Source: Puniceicoccales bacterium (GTDB taxonomy: Bacteria > Verrucomicrobiota > Verrucomicrobiia > Opitutales > UBA953). Taken from it: 51,895 bases of DNA. Where the stretch lies: contig JAITVQ010000164.1 of assembly GCA_031285745.1 (NCBI GenBank), positions 1-51,895 on the forward strand, read 5' to 3'. The notes under the pieces are model-generated. The model did not search any database. It was given only the letters and a program-made list of their open reading frames with translations, and was not told the origin of the DNA. This document shows, one piece after another, positions 4,708 to 40,357 of this stretch. The first letter of the stretch is position 1; each line of letters opens with the position of its first letter. The position numbers were made by a program, and so were the translations under genes.

Positions 4708-5715
4708 ATGAATCTCTATTTTCGCGTGAGTGTTTTTCATGCGACCTTGGCTTTGTGTGCCGCAACATGCGGATTTACAGCGCACTTGTTGGCGCAGTCT
4801 TCTCCAACGGAAACTACTTCTCAGGAATTGTTTGTTGAAGCGCAGCCTAAAGAAGGAGGTACGGTAGTTGGACAAGGGCGCTATCCCATTGGCAAGGCTG
4901 TCGAAGTTATTGCAGTGCCAAAAGAGCATTATCGCTTTGCCTATTGGGCAGGCGCAGTCGTAACCAATCCAAACAACCCTAAAACAAATATATATATTAG
5001 TAGCCAACCGCAGCGTTTGGTAGCTGCCTTTGAGCCGGAAAAATTCCTTTTAACCATTACCACAGAGCCAAGCCAGGCAGGCGATGTCAGAGGTGGGGGG
5101 TATATCCCCTATGGAGCCATGGCTCCCGTTTCGGTTAAAGCTTATGGGGGTTTTGTCTTTGATCGATGGGAGGGCCCGGTTGCTGACAAAAGCTCAGATA
5201 CCACAATGCTGGCCTCTCCTTTAAAAGGGCCGTTGAGTCTTGTTGCCCGCTTCAAGCCGGAAATTAAGCAATACACCCTGTCTGCGACAGTTGAACCCGC
5301 AGGTGCAGGCACGATAGAAGGATTGGGGACCTTTGATCGTGGAGTTATGGCGAAAGTTAAGGCAATTCCTGCCAAAGGTTATCTGTTCAATGGGTGGGAA
5401 GGTCCTGTGTCTCGAGCCGGGAGAGAAGAAACGGAAGCATTTATTAATGGAGACATTAAATTGAAGGCACGTTTTATTGCCAAGCCTGCGTGGGTTTCGG
5501 CAAAGGTATCTCCCCTAGGTGCTGGGAAAATTGAGGGGGATTTAGGGGCACAACCCGTAGGAAAAATATGCAAAATAAAAGCTTTACCTGAGGCAGGATA
5601 TATTTTTGATCATTGGGGAAATGGGGTATCTAATTCATATGCAGCTGAAACAACATTCACTCCGACGGAGGGAAAAACCGTTGAGCTGCATGCGTATTTT
5701 AGGCCTATTCAATAG
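4708..5715 (+). CDS. Secreted protein with four divergent InlB-like B-repeats
   Basis: A 335-residue protein with a signal peptide (about 1-30, ending near HLLAQS). Four units of about 70-75 residues follow. Each contains a 'P..GG.V.G.G.Y..G..V...A.P..GY.F..W.G.V' pattern and ends in a boundary strand such as LVAAFEPEKF, LVARFKPEIK and KARFIAKPAW. This is the divergent InlB B-repeat (Listeria-Bacteroides repeat) type of beta-grasp module, found on cell surfaces and in adhesins. No membrane anchor is present. A GGGTAAGG ribosome site precedes the ATG. It is a short relative of the giant gene that starts 16 bases downstream, possibly a tip or adaptor for it. Confidence 0.8.
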   Translation: MNLYFRVSVFHATLALCAATCGFTAHLLAQSSPTETTSQELFVEAQPKEGGTVVGQGRYPIGKAVEVIAVPKEHYRFAYWAGAVVTNPNNPKTNIYISSQPQRLVAAFEPEKFLLTITTEPSQAGDVRGGGYIPYGAMAPVSVKAYGGFVFDRWEGPVADKSSDTTMLASPLKGPLSLVARFKPEIKQYTLSATVEPAGAGTIEGLGTFDRGVMAKVKAIPAKGYLFNGWEGPVSRAGREETEAFINGDIKLKARFIAKPAWVSAKVSPLGAGKIEGDLGAQPVGKICKIKALPEAGYIFDHWGNGVSNSYAAETTFTPTEGKTVELHAYFRPIQ

Positions 5716-33936: not shown

Positions 33937-35556
33937 TTACACAGCATTCTCTCCTAAGCACTTTTCCCACGTTAAGCCGAAACGAGCCAAATACTTCCTC
34001 AAACGGTCGGCATCATTGCGAGTCCTGCGCTTTTCTCCGGAAATATCGAACAAGTACCGCCCGGCTTCAGAGAGGTTTTTTGATTTTCGACAAGTTTCGA
34101 CCACGACAGACAACTGCACCTGGTCGAAGCGATCAATGTGGGAAAGGTGTTTTTTCCCGAGAACTTTTTCCAGCAAATCCACGGATGCCTGTGTTGATTG
34201 ATTGTCGGCATCGCCGCGCCAATCTTCCAATAACCGGGATCTCTCCTGTTCAAACACCTCCATATTAATCCTTCGACCGCGTGAAAGAGTGGCCATGCGG
34301 ACCAAGGCGGCGTTCAGATCACGGAAGTTTCCGCTCCAACGGGCCTCATGGCTGGTTGCGAAACGAAGAAATGCTTCCTCTGCCTCCTTGTTAAAGCGTA
34401 CCTGCTGGCCGAATTCGCGGGCCAGTTTCTCCAGCTCGTAACGCACGTTGGGCGCGATATCCTCCGGGCGCTCGCGCAGACCCGGCAGCCGAAAGCTCCA
34501 CAGGTTGATTCGGGCCAGTAGGTCGGCCCGGAAGTCGCCTTTTGTCACTGACTGTCGTAGATCCCGGTTGGTACCGCAGATGAACTGAAAATCGCTCTTG
34601 GCATCCTTGTCGGCGCCCAGGGGAAGAAATCGTTTTTCTTCCAATGCCCGTAATAGCATGGCTTGTTCGTCGGCACCCAACTCGCCGATCTCGTCCAGAA
34701 ACAACAAGCCATTGTGCGCCGCCTTGAGCAATCCCGGCCTGTCCGTGGTGGCACCGGTAAAGGAACCCTTTACATGTCCGAACAGGGCGGACATCGCGCT
34801 ATCGCCGCGCAGTGTCGCGCAATTTACCTCGACGAAATTGCCGCTCAACTGTCCCCGGGACTTCTTCAGCTCGTAAATACGCCGGGCCAGTTGCGATTTC
34901 CCCGCCCCCGTTGGCCCCATCAGCAAAACTGGCGCCCGGGAATGCAGTGCTACCTGCTCGATATCATCAATCATCCGATTGAAAGTGTCATTGCTCGTCT
35001 CAATGCCTGATTTCAGGAAGGCGGCGGTCTCCCGTTGCTCTTCCTCGAATCGGGCGGCCAGCCGATCATATTTCGACAGATCGAGGTCAATAATCCCATA
35101 GTTTCCCTCGGGCCCGTCATTGTTCCGCCGGGGTGGAAAGGTCTGGATCAATCGACCGGGCAGATGGCCCGACTCTGTCAGCAAAAACAAACAGATCTGC
35201 CCTACGTGACTCCCGGTGGTGATATGGATCAGGTAATCCTCTGAATCGGGGTCAAAAGACTGCTTCTTGGCATAATCATGCAGCGCGGAGTAAACACTCT
35301 CGAAATCCCAGGGATCCTTGTTGAAATCGACCTCTATCAGCCGAACCTCGGTCTCCGGTGATGCCGTCTGCATATCGGAGCTTACGCTTTCCGCCAACGC
35401 CTTGAATTGCGGTTCGTGCAACAGGTCGAACCGCGCAACCAGCAAATCTTCCTGCTGACAGAGTCCCACCGACGGTCGCCATTTGGACCAACGATCCTGC
35501 GGATGGCGTGAGTCAAGCTGGGTTCCCAGCAAACCAATCACAATCGTCCTTTTCAT
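33937..35556 (-). CDS. rtcR: RtcR, CARF-domain sigma-54 activator of the RNA repair operon
   Basis: A 539-residue bacterial enhancer-binding protein. The N-terminal 180 residues (MKRTIVIGLLGTQLD..., LIHITTGSHVGQICLFL) are the CRISPR-associated Rossmann-fold sensory domain typical of RtcR, which senses RNA or its cyclic-phosphate ends. The AAA+ domain follows: Walker A GPTGAGKS (about 214), the sigma-54 contact loop GSFTGA (about 264), and Walker B LLFLDEIGE (about 284). The C-terminal 70 residues (NLSEAGRYLF...RLRKYLARFGL) fit a helix-turn-helix. It is divergent from rsr, whose promoter has a sigma-54 element. In enterobacteria RtcR activates rtcBA in response to RNA damage signals; the same circuit is inferred here. 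Confidence 0.95.
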   Translation of the reverse strand: MKRTIVIGLLGTQLDSRHPQDRWSKWRPSVGLCQQEDLLVARFDLLHEPQFKALAESVSSDMQTASPETEVRLIEVDFNKDPWDFESVYSALHDYAKKQSFDPDSEDYLIHITTGSHVGQICLFLLTESGHLPGRLIQTFPPRRNNDGPEGNYGIIDLDLSKYDRLAARFEEEQRETAAFLKSGIETSNDTFNRMIDDIEQVALHSRAPVLLMGPTGAGKSQLARRIYELKKSRGQLSGNFVEVNCATLRGDSAMSALFGHVKGSFTGATTDRPGLLKAAHNGLLFLDEIGELGADEQAMLLRALEEKRFLPLGADKDAKSDFQFICGTNRDLRQSVTKGDFRADLLARINLWSFRLPGLRERPEDIAPNVRYELEKLAREFGQQVRFNKEAEEAFLRFATSHEARWSGNFRDLNAALVRMATLSRGRRINMEVFEQERSRLLEDWRGDADNQSTQASVDLLEKVLGKKHLSHIDRFDQVQLSVVVETCRKSKNLSEAGRYLFDISGEKRRTRNDADRLRKYLARFGLTWEKCLGENAV

Positions 35557-35711: not shown

Positions 35712-35728
35712 TTGGCATGCTGCTGGCA
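35712..35728 (+). promoter_or_regulatory. Sigma-54 (RpoN) -24/-12 promoter of the rsr-Y RNA-rtcAB operon
   Basis: The sequence TTGGCATGCTGCTGGCA has the invariant GG-N10-GC spacing and matches TGGCAY-N4-5-TTGCW with one mismatch at the -12 element. Transcription would start about 12 bases downstream, near 35740. This makes the ORF-track start at 35717 impossible for rsr and fixes the ATG at 35771. RtcR being a sigma-54 activator encoded divergently supports the call. Confidence 0.85.
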
Positions 35729-35770: not shown

Positions 35771-37327
35771 ATGGCCAACAAAACACTCTTCTCAACCATC
35801 GCCTCTCTTGTGGCTCGCCCGGCGGACACCATCAACGAAGCCGGAGGGAAGGCCTACGCCCTGTCACCGCAGCAGGCACTTGCCCAATACGCGCTGACCG
35901 GCTGCCTCAACGGCACATTTTATGCCGAGGCGGAAGTCCAGTTGGCCAGGGTGATCGACCTGTGCTCCCAAGTGGATGACACCTTCATCGCCCGGCTGGC
36001 TGTGTATGCCCGGCACGAGGGTGGCATGAAAGACATGCCGGCACTGCTCTGCGCGATTCTTTCGACCCGGGATACCCGGCTCTTCAACTGGGTGGCGCGT
36101 TCGGTACTCAACTCATCCCGCTTGATCCGCACATTTGTCCAGATCATGCGCAGTGGGGCAGTAGGCCGAAAATCCTTGGGTACCCGTCCGAAGAAAGTCA
36201 TCATCGACTGGCTGAACCGGCTCGATGACGATACACTCTTCCGCCAATCCATTGGCGCGGATCCGTCACTCGGCGACATCATCAAGATGGTGCACCCGAC
36301 CCCGGCAACCCCGGCTCGCGAGGCGCTTTATGCCTACTTCACGGATCGTCCGCACAAGGCGGAAGTTTTGCCGACATTGGTCCGCGACTTCGAAGCCTTC
36401 AAGTTATCACCGCAAACGGTTTCCTTGCCGGATGTTCCGTTCCAGATGCTTACTTCATTCCCGCTCGGGGCCAAACAATGGGCGGATATCGCCCGGCGTG
36501 CCTCCTGGCAGACATTGCGAATGAACTTGAACACCTTGGCGCGTAACGGCGTCTTCTCGCTGCCGGGCATGAGTGCGACCATTGCCTCGCGTTTGCGTGA
36601 TGCGAATGCCATCCGGGCCGCCCGTGTGTTTCCTTACCAGATGCTCTCAGCCGCACGGCATGTTGACACCGCAGTTCCGCAGGAAGTGCAGCGGGTGCTG
36701 GAAGATGCCATGGAAATCTCCGTGGACAATGTTCCGGCCATCGCAGGCGACGTGGTCATCTGTGTTGATGTTTCGGGCTCCATGGAAAGTTCCATCACGG
36801 GCTATCGAAAAGGTGCGACCAGCAAAATCCGTTGTGTCGATGTCGCCGCGCTTATCGCGGCGGCTGTTCTCCGGAAGAACCCGCAGGCGCATGTCATCCC
36901 GTTTGCCGATGATGTGGTCTCGGTCTCATTGCGAACGGGGGCTACTGTCTTGGAAAACACCAATCGCCTGGCGGCAGCGCTCGGCGGCGGAACCAACTGC
37001 AGCGCGCCGTTGACCCGGCTCAACGCGCAGCGGGCCAAGGCCGACCTGATCATCTATGTCTCCGACAACCAGTCCTGGGTAGATGCCCGGTCAACGCATT
37101 GCACGGCGACCATGCAGGAATGGACCAAGTTCAAATCCCGCAATCGTCGGGCCCGGATGGTCTGCATTAACTTGCAGCCTTACGGGACCGCCCAGGCAAC
37201 AGGGAGCGCGGATATCCTCAACATCGGGGGATTTTCCGACCACGTCTTCCAGATGATTGCCGATTTTGCCCAAGGGCAGGATGGCGGCGATAGTCTCATC
37301 AAGCGGATCGAAGCCATCGAGCTTTGA
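35771..37327 (+). CDS. rsr: Ro60 orthologue Rsr (TROVE/vWA ring protein)
   Basis: A 518-residue protein with the TROVE module of HEAT-like helices (about 20-320; FIARLAVYARHEGGMKDMPALL is characteristic) that forms the ring binding misfolded RNA ends and Y RNAs. A von Willebrand A domain follows, with an intact MIDAS D-x-S-x-S in CVDVSGSMES (about 333-337). The start is fixed by AAGGAG ten bases upstream of ATG 35771 and by the sigma-54 promoter lying over the track's earlier ATG. In bacteria Ro60 uses Y RNA to tether PNPase or to gate RNA access. Four Y-like RNAs follow directly, and then rtcA and rtcB. Confidence 0.95.
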   Translation: MANKTLFSTIASLVARPADTINEAGGKAYALSPQQALAQYALTGCLNGTFYAEAEVQLARVIDLCSQVDDTFIARLAVYARHEGGMKDMPALLCAILSTRDTRLFNWVARSVLNSSRLIRTFVQIMRSGAVGRKSLGTRPKKVIIDWLNRLDDDTLFRQSIGADPSLGDIIKMVHPTPATPAREALYAYFTDRPHKAEVLPTLVRDFEAFKLSPQTVSLPDVPFQMLTSFPLGAKQWADIARRASWQTLRMNLNTLARNGVFSLPGMSATIASRLRDANAIRAARVFPYQMLSAARHVDTAVPQEVQRVLEDAMEISVDNVPAIAGDVVICVDVSGSMESSITGYRKGATSKIRCVDVAALIAAAVLRKNPQAHVIPFADDVVSVSLRTGATVLENTNRLAAALGGGTNCSAPLTRLNAQRAKADLIIYVSDNQSWVDARSTHCTATMQEWTKFKSRNRRARMVCINLQPYGTAQATGSADILNIGGFSDHVFQMIADFAQGQDGGDSLIKRIEAIEL

Positions 37328-37336
37328 CCATAAACA

Positions 37337-37367
37337 TGGAGTGCGGCAGCGCACCTGCCACACTCCA
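37337..37367 (+). other. Stable stem-loop between rsr and the Y RNA array
   Basis: TGGAGTG pairs with CACTCCA, and inside it GGCAG pairs with CTGCC across a C/A mismatch, closing a five-base loop. It begins 10 bases after the rsr stop. No U-tract follows, so it is more likely an mRNA 3' stabiliser or processing element separating rsr mRNA from the RNA array than a full terminator. Confidence 0.5.
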
Positions 37368-37386
37368 TTGCACCTTTCATCATCTT

Positions 37387-37508
37387 GGCGCGAATGCCGT
37401 GAGAACTACATGGTCTCCCGGACGCCGGGTTCGAGTCCCGGCCCCTTGCCAGCAAGGGTAGCTCAGTGGTAGAGCAAGGAATTGTTTTCACACCACCTTT
37501 GTCGCGCC
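37387..37508 (+). ncRNA. yrlA-like: Y RNA 1 with complete permuted tRNA-like module
   Basis: The ends pair perfectly (GGCGCGA with TCGCGCC). Then come the shared 5' motif GAATGCC...ACTACAT and an inner helix GTGAGAAC/GTTTTCAC, together matching the Ro60-binding part of Y RNAs. The distal part is a circularly permuted tRNA: T arm (CCGGG-TTCGAGT-CCCGG, 37425-37441), acceptor 3' strand CCCTTG, a short loop CCAG, acceptor 5' strand CAAGGG, U8-A9, and D arm GCTC-AGTGGTA-GAGC (37461-37475). The anticodon arm is replaced by the Ro-binding stem. YrlA-type bacterial Y RNAs are known to mimic tRNA this way. The position right after rsr supports the call. Confidence 0.9.
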
Positions 37509-37527: not shown

Positions 37528-37653
37528 TGCGTGAATGCCTTGGGAACTACATTGGTTGCGGGTTCGAATCCCGCCTCTCGCGAAGGACGCAACTGACTGT
37601 CGCGGGAGTAGCTCAATGGTAGAGCAGTCTGTTCCCGGATTCCTTGTCACGCA
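37528..37653 (+). ncRNA. yrlA-like: Y RNA 2 with complete permuted tRNA-like module
   Basis: The ends TGCGTGA and TCACGCA pair. Relative to copy 1, terminal base pairs change on both sides together, which is compensatory evidence. The inner helix is GGGAAC/GTTCCC. The tRNA mimic has T arm GCGGG-TTCGAAT-CCCGC (37558-37574), a nine-pair acceptor CTCTCGCGA/TCGCGGGAG with a 16-base connecting loop, U8-A9, and D arm GCTC-AATGGTA-GAGC (37611-37625). The shared motifs GAATGCC, ACTACAT and CCTTGTC are all present. It is the best-formed tRNA mimic of the four. Confidence 0.9.
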
Positions 37654-37682: not shown

Positions 37683-37780
37683 GGCGCGAATGCCGGGGAA
37701 ACTACATGGTCTAATGTCGGTTCGAACCCGGCTTGCAGGTCTGGATAGCCTGCAAATGTTTCCTCAATCCTTGTCGCGCC
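37683..37780 (+). ncRNA. Y RNA 3 with partial tRNA-like module (no D arm)
   Basis: The ends GGCGCGA and TCGCGCC pair, and the inner helix is GGGGAAAC/GTTTCCTC with one G-U pair. The distal part has a T arm (GTCGG-TTCGAAC-CCGGC, 37716-37732) and a perfect seven-pair acceptor-like stem TTGCAGG/CCTGCAA with a nine-base loop, but passes straight back into the Ro stem without a D arm. It keeps the GAATGCC, ACTACAT and CCTTGTC motifs. It would still present a T-loop to T-loop-modifying enzymes, but could not form the D-loop/T-loop elbow. Confidence 0.85.
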
Positions 37781-37835
37781 TCCTGTGGCGTCGTCACCTT
37801 GACGGCACTGCCGGGAGAAGACACCATTTCACCTT

Positions 37836-37899
37836 GGGCCGAATGCCGCCGTGACTACATTTACACCATGTCTCCGTCACGGCAACCTCTTGTCGGTCC
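37836..37899 (+). ncRNA. Y RNA 4, minimal Ro-binding hairpin
   Basis: Only 64 bases long. The ends GGGCCGA and TCGGTCC pair with one G-U. The motif GAATGCC...ACTACAT is kept, followed by an inner helix GCCGTGAC/GTCACGGC and a 20-base loop with no tRNA-like arms. The 3' strand keeps the TCTTGTCGG form of the shared motif. It ends 30 bases before the rtcA ATG, so it could also act as the rtcA leader. It looks like a Ro-binding module without an effector domain. Confidence 0.75.
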
Positions 37900-37929: not shown

Positions 37930-38955
37930 ATGTCCCTCATTCACATCGACGGTTCCGAAGGCGAAGGCGGCGGTCAAATCCTCCGTACTTCCCTCGCGCT
38001 TTCCATCATCACCGGCAAGCCCATCCGTATCGACAACATTCGTGCCGGACGCTCCAAGCCCGGGCTGCTCCGGCAGCACCTGGCCTCGGTCAAGGCGGCG
38101 GTGGAAATATCCCGCGCCAAGGCCGAGGGCGTTGCGCTTGGGTCAACCGCGCTCACTTTTCATCCCGGGAACGTTACTGCGGGAGAATACCGTTTCTCCA
38201 TTGGCTCGGCGGGCAGCGCCCTGCTGGTCTTCCAGACGATCCTCCTGCCCCTGCTTCATGCGGATGCTCCGAGCACGGTGACCATCGAGGGTGGTACGCA
38301 CAACCCGTTTGCCCCGCCGTTTCCGTTCATCGAAAAAACCTTCCTCCCCTTGCTGCACCAGATCGGCTACCAGGTCGAAGTGAAACTGGAACGTCCCGGC
38401 TTCTATCCGGCGGGTGGTGGTATCATCACGGCCACCATTACTCCGGGAGGAAAACGCCGCGTGCTCAAGATCGGGCCGCGCACGGAAATTCTGGATCGCG
38501 AAGCCATTGGCGTTGTTGCCAATCTTTCGCGCAAGATCGCCGAACGGGAACTGGAGCGACTGGGCTCCGCGATGAGCCTTGTTCCCGACGAAATGTGCAT
38601 CCACGAAATCAACGACACGCCTGGTCCCGGCAATGCCCTTTTCGTGAAACTGCGCAGCAGCCAGCTTACCGAAACCTTCTCCTCTTTTGGGGAACAGGGA
38701 CGGCATGCCGAAAAAGTGGCGGACGGACTGCACGACGAGGTCCGGCGGTACCTGAAAAGCAATGGTGCCGTCGGCGAACATCTGGCCGACCAGCTTCTGC
38801 TGCCGCTCGCCTTGGCCAAAGGGGGTGTTTTCACCACCCTGCCGCCTTCCCGCCACACCCAAACCAACATTGCGGTCATCGGACGCTTTCTCGATGCCCG
38901 CATCAACGTCCGGAAGATCGACCGCCTCGATTACGAAATCGAGGTCAAACCATAA
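37930..38955 (+). CDS. rtcA: RNA 3'-terminal phosphate cyclase
   Basis: RtcA converts RNA 3'-phosphate ends to 2',3'-cyclic phosphates through RNA-adenylate and enzyme-AMP intermediates. The 341-residue protein opens with the family signature (IDGSEGEGGGQILRTSLAL). It contains FYPAGGG around residue 160 and ends with SRHTQTNIAVIG, where the His is residue 309, the same number as the AMP-accepting His of the E. coli enzyme. There is no strong ribosome site, and the gene follows Y RNA 4 by 30 bases. The rtcB start codon is 19 bases after its stop. The order rsr, Y RNAs, rtcA, rtcB differs from the enterobacterial rsr-yrl-rtcBA order. Confidence 0.95.
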   Translation: MSLIHIDGSEGEGGGQILRTSLALSIITGKPIRIDNIRAGRSKPGLLRQHLASVKAAVEISRAKAEGVALGSTALTFHPGNVTAGEYRFSIGSAGSALLVFQTILLPLLHADAPSTVTIEGGTHNPFAPPFPFIEKTFLPLLHQIGYQVEVKLERPGFYPAGGGIITATITPGGKRRVLKIGPRTEILDREAIGVVANLSRKIAERELERLGSAMSLVPDEMCIHEINDTPGPGNALFVKLRSSQLTETFSSFGEQGRHAEKVADGLHDEVRRYLKSNGAVGEHLADQLLLPLALAKGGVFTTLPPSRHTQTNIAVIGRFLDARINVRKIDRLDYEIEVKP

Positions 38956-38974
38956 CCAACGTATCCAACATACC

Positions 38975-40357
38975 ATGACACATCAAGAAATCATCAAACT
39001 CGGCGTCCCCGAGGGTAAACCGCTTTCCCTGGCTTTCCATCTCATCAAGCTCATGGCTGAATCCGGCGCGGATCGGGCTGCCATGGAGGCGCGGATCAGC
39101 GCCGTTGTCCAGGATCCCGCAGCCTTTGCCGACGACCCGCAGGCCGGTCCGTTTGCCCAGGTCCTGTTGTCCGAGCGCTATGTCCCGCGTGCCGAACCGG
39201 CACCCTGGCGACAATGGGGGAGCGGACTGGAAGAAACTGCCGTCCAGCAGATGCGCGTGGCCTGCCAGTTGCCGGTCTCGTTTGCCGGGGCGCTCATGCC
39301 CGACGCCCACGTCGGCTATGGCCTTCCCATCGGCGGCGTCCTTGCCACCCGCAATGCGGTTATTCCCTATGCGGTCGGGGTCGACATTGCCTGCCGCATG
39401 AAGCTCTCCGTTTACGACCTTCCGGTGTCATTGCTCGAAGACGATGAAAACCGCCTCAAGTCGGCACTGGCCCGGGAAACCCAATTCGGGGTGGGCGCGA
39501 CTTTCAAGCAACGCCGCCAACATGAAGTCATGGACCGCGATTGGGGCGTCTCCCCGATCACCCGGCAAAACAAGGACAAGGCCTGGGCCCAGTTGGGAAC
39601 CAGCGGAAGCGGCAACCACTTTGTCGAGTACGGCGTATTGACCTTGGACGCTCCGGCCTTGGGTCTGGATGCCGGGCGATATCTCGCCTTGCTCAGCCAT
39701 AGCGGAAGCCGGGGAACCGGAGCCTCCGTGGCCGACCATTACAGCAAACTCGCCAAGAAAATGCACCCCGAGCTTCCCGACAACCAGCGCAACCTGGCCT
39801 GGCTTGATCTGGATACCCCGGAAGGGCAGGAATATTGGGCGGCCATGGAACTCATGGGTGAATACGCGGCTGCCAACCATGCCTGTATCCACAAACACAT
39901 TGCGGCCCAGTTGGGCGCGCAGGTGTTGCTCGACGTCGAGAATCACCACAACTTTGCCTGGAAGGAAATTCATCAGGGCGAGGAAGTGATTGTCCACCGT
40001 AAGGGGGCAACCCCGGCTGGCGCAGACGTCTTGGGGATCATCCCCGGTTCCATGGGTGCGCCCGGCTATGTCGTGCGCGGACGCGGCAATGCGGAATCAT
40101 TGCACTCGGCTTCACACGGGGCAGGGCGACGCATGAGCCGGACCAAGGCTTTTGAAACCATTACCTGGGAACAAACCCATGCATGGCTCAAGGAGCGCGG
40201 CGTTAAGCTCATGTCTGCCGGCTTGGACGAATCGCCGCTGGCTTACAAGGATATCGCCGAGGTCATGGCTGCCCAGGTCGACCTTGTCGAAACACTGGCC
40301 CGCTTCGATCCCCGCCTTGTCAAAATGGCCCCGGCGGGTGAACGTCCGGAGGATTAA
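38975..40357 (+). CDS. rtcB: RNA ligase RtcB
   Basis: The ORF track extends to 38762 within rtcA; the ATG at 38975 (MTHQEIIKLGVPEG) gives 460 residues, somewhat longer than E. coli RtcB. RtcB joins 2',3'-cyclic-phosphate or 3'-phosphate ends to 5'-OH ends using GTP and Mn2+. The signature PDAHVGYGLPIGG (about 109-121) and a metal-binding Cys in VDIACRMKL (about 140) are present. So are TSGSGNHFVE (about 209), HSGSRGTG, and SASHGAGRRMSR, whose His (about 381) accepts GMP. It is the last gene of the sigma-54 operon and is followed by a strong hairpin. Confidence 0.95.
   Translation: MTHQEIIKLGVPEGKPLSLAFHLIKLMAESGADRAAMEARISAVVQDPAAFADDPQAGPFAQVLLSERYVPRAEPAPWRQWGSGLEETAVQQMRVACQLPVSFAGALMPDAHVGYGLPIGGVLATRNAVIPYAVGVDIACRMKLSVYDLPVSLLEDDENRLKSALARETQFGVGATFKQRRQHEVMDRDWGVSPITRQNKDKAWAQLGTSGSGNHFVEYGVLTLDAPALGLDAGRYLALLSHSGSRGTGASVADHYSKLAKKMHPELPDNQRNLAWLDLDTPEGQEYWAAMELMGEYAAANHACIHKHIAAQLGAQVLLDVENHHNFAWKEIHQGEEVIVHRKGATPAGADVLGIIPGSMGAPGYVVRGRGNAESLHSASHGAGRRMSRTKAFETITWEQTHAWLKERGVKLMSAGLDESPLAYKDIAEVMAAQVDLVETLARFDPRLVKMAPAGERPED

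Follow-up and report, generated by a model that had tools for sequence, protein, structure and literature searches.

A class of short Y RNAs with a Ro-type shell and no tRNA-like domain in RtcR-linked RNA-repair operons

An RNA-repair operon with four Y RNA copies

The window, i.e. the whole stretch of 51,895 nucleotides of a Puniceicoccales bacterium (contig JAITVQ010000164.1) that was analysed, harbours an RNA-repair operon in which a divergent rtcR gene and a sigma-54-type promoter are followed by rsr, four Y RNA copies, rtcA and rtcB (Table 1). A matching promoter element (TGGCATGCCGCTGGC) is found at the equivalent position in a congener (G006). The longest open reading frame would place the start of rsr at 35717, a candidate that we rejected. 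Since this position falls within the promoter and homologues align from the methionine at 35771, the true start is most likely the ATG at 35771, which is preceded by AAAGGAG. Between the rsr stop and the first Y RNA lies another hairpin (37336-37368; 13 pairs, -21.7 kcal/mol, z -5.4), which occupies the spot where a short Y RNA (class I, see below) sits in most relatives. At the far end of the operon, the order rtcA-rtcB differs from the order rtcB-rtcA at most related rsr arrays, and the RtcB of the window shares just 26-30% identity with the product of the rtcB gene adjoining most of those arrays.

Table 1. Features of the RNA-repair operon, with their positions in the window and the evidence for each assignment.
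Feature	Position	Strand	Evidence
rtcR, CARF/sigma-54 activator of the RNA-repair operon	33937-35556	-	Pfam RtcR 262.9 bits and Sigma54_activat
Sigma-54-type promoter TTGGCATGCTGCTGGCA (-24/-12)	35712-35728	+	Direct reading of the sequence
rsr, bacterial Ro60	35771-37327	+	Pfam vWA_Ro60 and TROVE; PDB 2nvo Rsr, E 7e-18
Y RNA copy 1, complete tRNA-like domain with T arm (37424-37442) and D arm (37459-37476)	37387-37508	+	RF02553 60.1 bits
Y RNA copy 2, complete tRNA-like domain with T arm (37558-37574) and D arm (37609-37626)	37528-37653	+	RF02553 77.5 bits
Y RNA copy 3, class II modules (T arm and single hairpin)	37683-37780 (98 nt)	+	RF02553 38.8 bits; class I model 47.7 bits
T arm of copy 3 (GTCGG TTCGAAC CCGGC)	37716-37732	+	
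7-bp hairpin of copy 3 (TTGCAGG tctggatag CCTGCAA), 9-base loop	37733-37755	+	
Y RNA copy 4, class I, Ro-type hairpin without effector domain	37836-37899 (64 nt)	+	Class I model 63.7 bits, E 5e-14
Inner 8-bp helix of copy 4, GCCGUGAC/GUCACGGC	37848-37855 with 37876-37883	+	
20-base apical loop of copy 4	37856-37875	+	
rtcA, RNA 3'-terminal phosphate cyclase	37930-38955	+	Pfam RTC 260 bits
rtcB, RNA ligase	38975-40357	+	Pfam RtcB 293.9 bits

All four copies have the hallmarks of a bacterial Y RNA: an outer and an inner helix formed from both ends, the conserved internal-loop sequences, and a gene that adjoins rsr. A motif scan that relied on the two helices and the AAUG...ACUA and UUG elements gave lengths of 122, 126, 98 and 64 nt for copies 1-4, with apical regions of 77, 83, 55 and 20 bases, respectively. 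Copy 2 alone passes the gathering score (69) of RF02553, the Rfam model of YrlA; copy 1 stays below it, and copy 3 does not qualify as a carrier of the tRNA-like domain by this measure. Copy 4, in which the whole tRNA-like domain is missing, was not matched when the window was searched with RF02553. With the Ro shell enforced, copies 2 and 4 are already at their energy minimum, and copy 1 has an alternative fold that is 4.6 kcal/mol lower. The unconstrained minimum-energy fold of copy 3 contains other pairings and is 2.3 kcal/mol better than its Y fold.

Copy 3 combines an outer helix of 7 bp and an inner helix (37695-37702 with 37758-37765) with a T arm and one further hairpin. In the initial annotation it had been described as keeping a T arm and an acceptor-like stem and lacking a D arm. 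The T arm is indeed present. The remainder of that description is one of two readings, because the stem, with its 7 bp, is as long as an acceptor stem, whereas the loop, UCUGGAUAG, has the GG and UA of a D loop; the hairpin may thus represent either an acceptor-like stem without a D arm or a fused acceptor/D hairpin.

In copy 4 the outer helix of 7 bp and the inner helix are both perfect, and their sequences depart from those of the sibling copies by compensatory changes. The minimum-energy fold is the Y fold itself (-24.4 kcal/mol; z -3.24 relative to shuffled sequences). Re-reading of the sequence and the motif scan agree with the extent originally assigned to copies 3 and 4 (37683-37899) and with the 20-base loop of copy 4, and rtcA does begin 30 bases past this copy. 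Within the loop, ACAU (37857-37860) is able to pair with AUGU (37868-37871), giving an apical stem of 4 bp. Copies 1-4 support the earlier idea of a series from a full tRNA mimic to a bare Ro-type hairpin, albeit the word bare is slightly too strong for copy 4: its tRNA-like domain is absent, but its loop can form this small stem.

Short Y RNAs in related rsr arrays

Eight genomes of the genus of the window were compared. A long rsr match occurs only in G006 and a fragmentary one in G003, and none of the eight gave a Y RNA match. Since the contigs of G006 break within rsr and within rtcA, rsr loci were taken from wider groups, namely two families of the class to which the window belongs and the order of a Pirellulales genome (Planctomycetes). 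An early motif scan already found short copies of 65-73 nt in other genomes. This first scanner missed ACTC or GATTCC variants and placed some 3' closures wrongly, and it was replaced by a covariance model. Arrays that appeared to consist only of bare hairpins (L125, L126 and L182) turned out to be an artefact of the first scanner.

The alignment behind the model comprises 15 short Y RNAs of other genomes and excludes the window. In this alignment, 91.9% of the helix cells are paired, and in 9 of the 14 pairs both partners have changed. With a value of 0.550, the covariation score exceeds the mean of 0.183 for shuffled alignments, none of 500 shuffles being as high, and it is destroyed when the pairing partner is slid by 1-3 columns. 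Applied to the 52-kb window, the model finds copy 4 and, with an E value of 5.8e-10, copy 3, and there are no other matches. As it was built without any sequence of the window, the detection of copy 4 is not due to chance. A search of 62 further loci yielded 179 matches, of which the significant ones lie almost all within rsr arrays; the counts of short copies lean on a model trained on short copies, yet the matches cluster in these arrays nonetheless.

When model matches and scanner calls were joined, the lengths of the Y RNAs proved to be trimodal, and we named the three groups class I (55-84 nt), class II (90-104 nt) and class III (about 110-150 nt). Class III is the tRNA mimic, with a T arm in 103 of 108 copies and a D-arm motif in 96 of 108. 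Class II often consists of a T arm and a single hairpin: 19 of its 31 members pass a strict T-arm test and one has a D-arm motif, the stems of this class being under-counted because the acceptor-stem finder used a trimmed core. In class I, neither a T arm nor a D-arm motif was found in 51 of 60 copies, and the exceptions are mostly short chance motifs. Copy 4 belongs to class I on all counts, i.e. match to a model from external genomes, length, and absence of both arms. The border between classes I and II is not absolute, because in one family the copies at the upper end of the size range (70-83 nt) carry a small extra hairpin and because L120 has a 78-nt copy with a T arm alone.

Several variants were observed within these classes. 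The second short copies of L046 and L110 (about 55 nt) are Y hairpins of still smaller size, in which the apical loop has 12 bases. Class II copies of L111, L112, L115, L116, L122 and L183 have a hairpin after the T arm, which in several species ends in a GNRA-type tetraloop (GCAA, GCGA). A full-length Y RNA of L041 (5254-5384) carries the variant T loop GGGTAACCAATCCC together with a D-arm-like GUGGCGGAA, as do the last Y copies of L042 (6022-6148), L111 (4058-4191) and L112 (4351-4474; coordinates rsr-oriented). These RNAs look as if they mimicked a different group of tRNAs.

Among RtcR-linked rsr arrays of the class of the window and of the Planctomycetes, 44 of 49 contain class I, seven of them with more than one copy; since the loci are phylogenetically related, these are not 44 independent events. 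The initial annotation had called for a comparison of copy number and modules across related genomes and had named absence or lack of alignability in close relatives as the sign of a decayed copy. For copy 4 this outcome was not obtained, as it is alignable and its class is widespread. Class I copies are mostly the first after rsr (40 of 54), with 11 internal and three in last position, and their median distance from the end of the rsr match is 48 bases. In these other operons the array is usually followed by rtcB, not rtcA. Loci with rsr but without rtcR, comprising those of a divergent Rsr type and many Planctomycete loci (40-44% identity), gave no or few Y matches.

Plasmid loci of Rhizobium, Methylosinus, Shinella, Novosphingobium and Xanthomonas contain mostly long copies. 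On the megaplasmid pMPPla107 of Pseudomonas amygdali, rtcR and rsr are accompanied by a tandem series of about five hairpins, each of 56-66 nt (L227 5159-5535), with a terminator-like hairpin behind it (5159-5575 overall). Neither a YrlA match nor a T- or D-arm motif was detected in these hairpins; neither rtcB nor rtcA is present beside the rtcR-rsr locus, and the class I model found no Y RNA outside the array on the whole plasmid.

Descent of the short copies

The comparison of shells was confined to the 5' and 3' shells. Within each group they sort by class: the nearest shell from a different locus belongs to the same class in 93% of cases in the Planctomycetes and in 98% and 85% in two families of the class of the window, compared with 42%, 38% and 43% after shuffling of the labels within loci. 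Between the Planctomycetes and the class of the window the shells are unsorted by class, the nearest neighbour of a class I shell being class I in 3 of 9 cases. Because of this lack of sorting, the shells do not demonstrate a deep common descent of all class I RNAs across the two groups.

The closest shells to that of copy 4 are mostly Planctomycete class I, with the nearest one (L176) identical at 37 of 48 positions; its siblings reach 26-28 of 48. We conclude that copy 4 is an established class I RNA; since its type is present in the great majority of related operons, it is probably a working part of the operon rather than a decayed copy. Copy 3, on the other hand, has class II modules (a T arm and a hairpin, without a separate D arm), yet its shell groups with those of full-length copies and with copy 1, to which it is identical at 38 of 48 positions. 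This match suggests that copy 3 probably arose by local duplication of copy 1, or was converted by it, its domain being reduced. The earlier notion of a graded loss of the effector domain consequently fits copy 3 but not copy 4, as it merges the two histories of an established class I RNA and a probable duplicate of copy 1.

Possible roles of class I

Bacterial Y RNAs are built of modules, with a basal stem that binds Rsr and a tRNA-like effector domain that binds PNPase (review PMC8394870). A Y RNA also gates substrate access (PMC4726728), and the enzymes of the RNA-repair operon have been linked to repair of broken tRNAs (PMC7790460). Class I is well supported as an RNA class by what could be computed directly, i.e. 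the sequence class, its covariation, its conservation and its operon context, and from these we infer its function. We propose that it constitutes a conserved class of effector-less Y RNAs that would bind and gate Rsr without tethering PNPase, and we hold this explanation as a whole to be probable, with moderate confidence.

According to this proposal, copy 4 would provide a complete two-helix shell for binding Ro60/Rsr, with a short loop in place of the tRNA-like effector domain. Once RtcR and sigma-54 switch on the operon, it would be made along with the other Y RNAs, presumably be processed as a separate RNA, and bind Rsr like the other copies, thereby closing or gating the Rsr ring. Since the module that carries PNPase is missing, it should be unable to tether this enzyme. 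The array would then yield mixed Rsr particles, PNPase-tethered ones with copies 1 and 2, possibly altered ones with copy 3, and untethered ones with copy 4, so that some Rsr could hold or release damaged RNA undegraded during repair by RtcA and RtcB. It is speculation, yet an untethered, non-degrading Rsr particle would be a reasonable product of a repair operon.

One point against this proposal is that class I is biased to the site directly behind rsr, a position for which an RNA acting purely in trans has no need. The same bias, together with the short distance from rsr, speaks for the main rival, in which class I is a cis-acting mRNA element: an Rsr-binding hairpin in the 3' UTR of rsr in most genomes, or in the rtcA leader in the window, by which Rsr would control or protect its own transcript or by which a processing border between mRNA and Y array would be marked. 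It would also accommodate one family with a 12-bp outer stem about 20-30 bases past rsr, and the window, where copy 4 is last and the separate stable hairpin fills the place after rsr. However, the copies inside or at the end of arrays do not fit, the Ro-type motifs are kept as well as in full Y RNAs, and about five class I-type hairpins stand in tandem at the Pseudomonas locus. Moreover, there is no single conserved cis target, class I being next to rtcA in the window and next to rsr elsewhere. A cis role is ill-suited to the window in particular, because copy 4 precedes rtcA and another stable hairpin follows rsr; overall we consider it unlikely. The suggestion that copy 4 acts in cis in the rtcA leader is weak and does not generalise either, since the short copy is mostly the first after rsr and rtcB usually follows the array.

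Somewhat less likely still is a role of copy 4 as a competitor that takes up Rsr in place of the PNPase-tethering Y RNAs, displacing them by dosage only. This is a near sub-case of our explanation; its shell, which is the same as in copies 1-3, would suit such a role, but the sequence offers nothing to tell it from an untethered particle.

The apical loops of class I are not random: in 32 of 54 distinct loops ACA(U) is able to base-pair with UGU/AUG, compared with a mean of 11.7 and a maximum of 22 in shuffles, and class I may for this reason possess an effector of its own. The corresponding alternative holds that class I is not effector-less and that its conserved apical stem-loop serves some other partner as a small binding site; this stem-loop reads UACAUUUACCCAUGU in Planctomycetes and has a similar sequence in the window. 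Both the excess of ACAU/AUGU pairing potential and the likeness of the loop in the two groups are in its favour. In other families, however, the loop differs, e.g. TTTTTGCGAAAAAACG in L038, and full Y RNAs likewise have the ACAU half where their effector domain begins; the shell may accordingly account for part of the loop conservation. We give this alternative a slightly smaller chance than competition. Finally, decay of copy 4 (and copy 3) as duplicates is very improbable: the observations that copy 3 looks like copy 1 duplicated locally and reduced in its domain, and that an intact array was seen in none of the congeners, with the contigs of G006 broken, would agree with it, but copy 4 has perfect helices with compensatory differences from its siblings and matches a class conserved across phyla, which already contradicts decay for this copy.

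The proposal of an effector-less Y RNA that gates Rsr without tethering PNPase can be extended tentatively, at somewhat less than even confidence: such an RNA may be nearly universal and separately maintained in the RtcR-controlled arrays of Planctomycetes and the class of the window, may, at one proteobacterial locus or more, be the sole type of Y RNA, and may form a second Ro60 particle without PNPase. The two roles ascribed to Y RNAs, gating of Ro60 and tethering of an effector, are hard to separate, and natural Y RNAs that have the Ro-binding half alone and are conserved beside full ones would separate them. Each species is generally described as having one tRNA-like Y RNA or more. Earlier work on Y RNAs that do without the tRNA-like domain may already cover part of the class I finding. 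Since the current Rfam model misses class I, the numbers of Y RNAs in public annotation are probably too low.

Comparison with known systems

YrlA (RF02553) has the same position in its operon, and its outer and inner helices, including the GAAUGC...ACUAC and CUUGUC sequences, are those seen in the window. It is matched by copies 1 and 2; copy 3, in contrast, is without a separate D arm and copy 4 without the entire tRNA-like domain. With RYPER, the Rsr-Y RNA-PNPase complex of Deinococcus radiodurans, the window shares, by gene content, Rsr and Y RNAs with a basal stem expected to bind Rsr, whereas the module reported as the PNPase-binding one is missing from class I. The rsr-yrlBA-rtcBA operon of Salmonella (PMC7790460, PMC9879122) differs in that the window has four Y RNAs and rtcA ahead of rtcB. 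Otherwise, the two operons have the same layout of divergent rtcR, sigma-54 promoter, rsr, Y RNAs and rtc genes, and Salmonella likewise has a second Y RNA (YrlB), which is located between rsr and YrlA.
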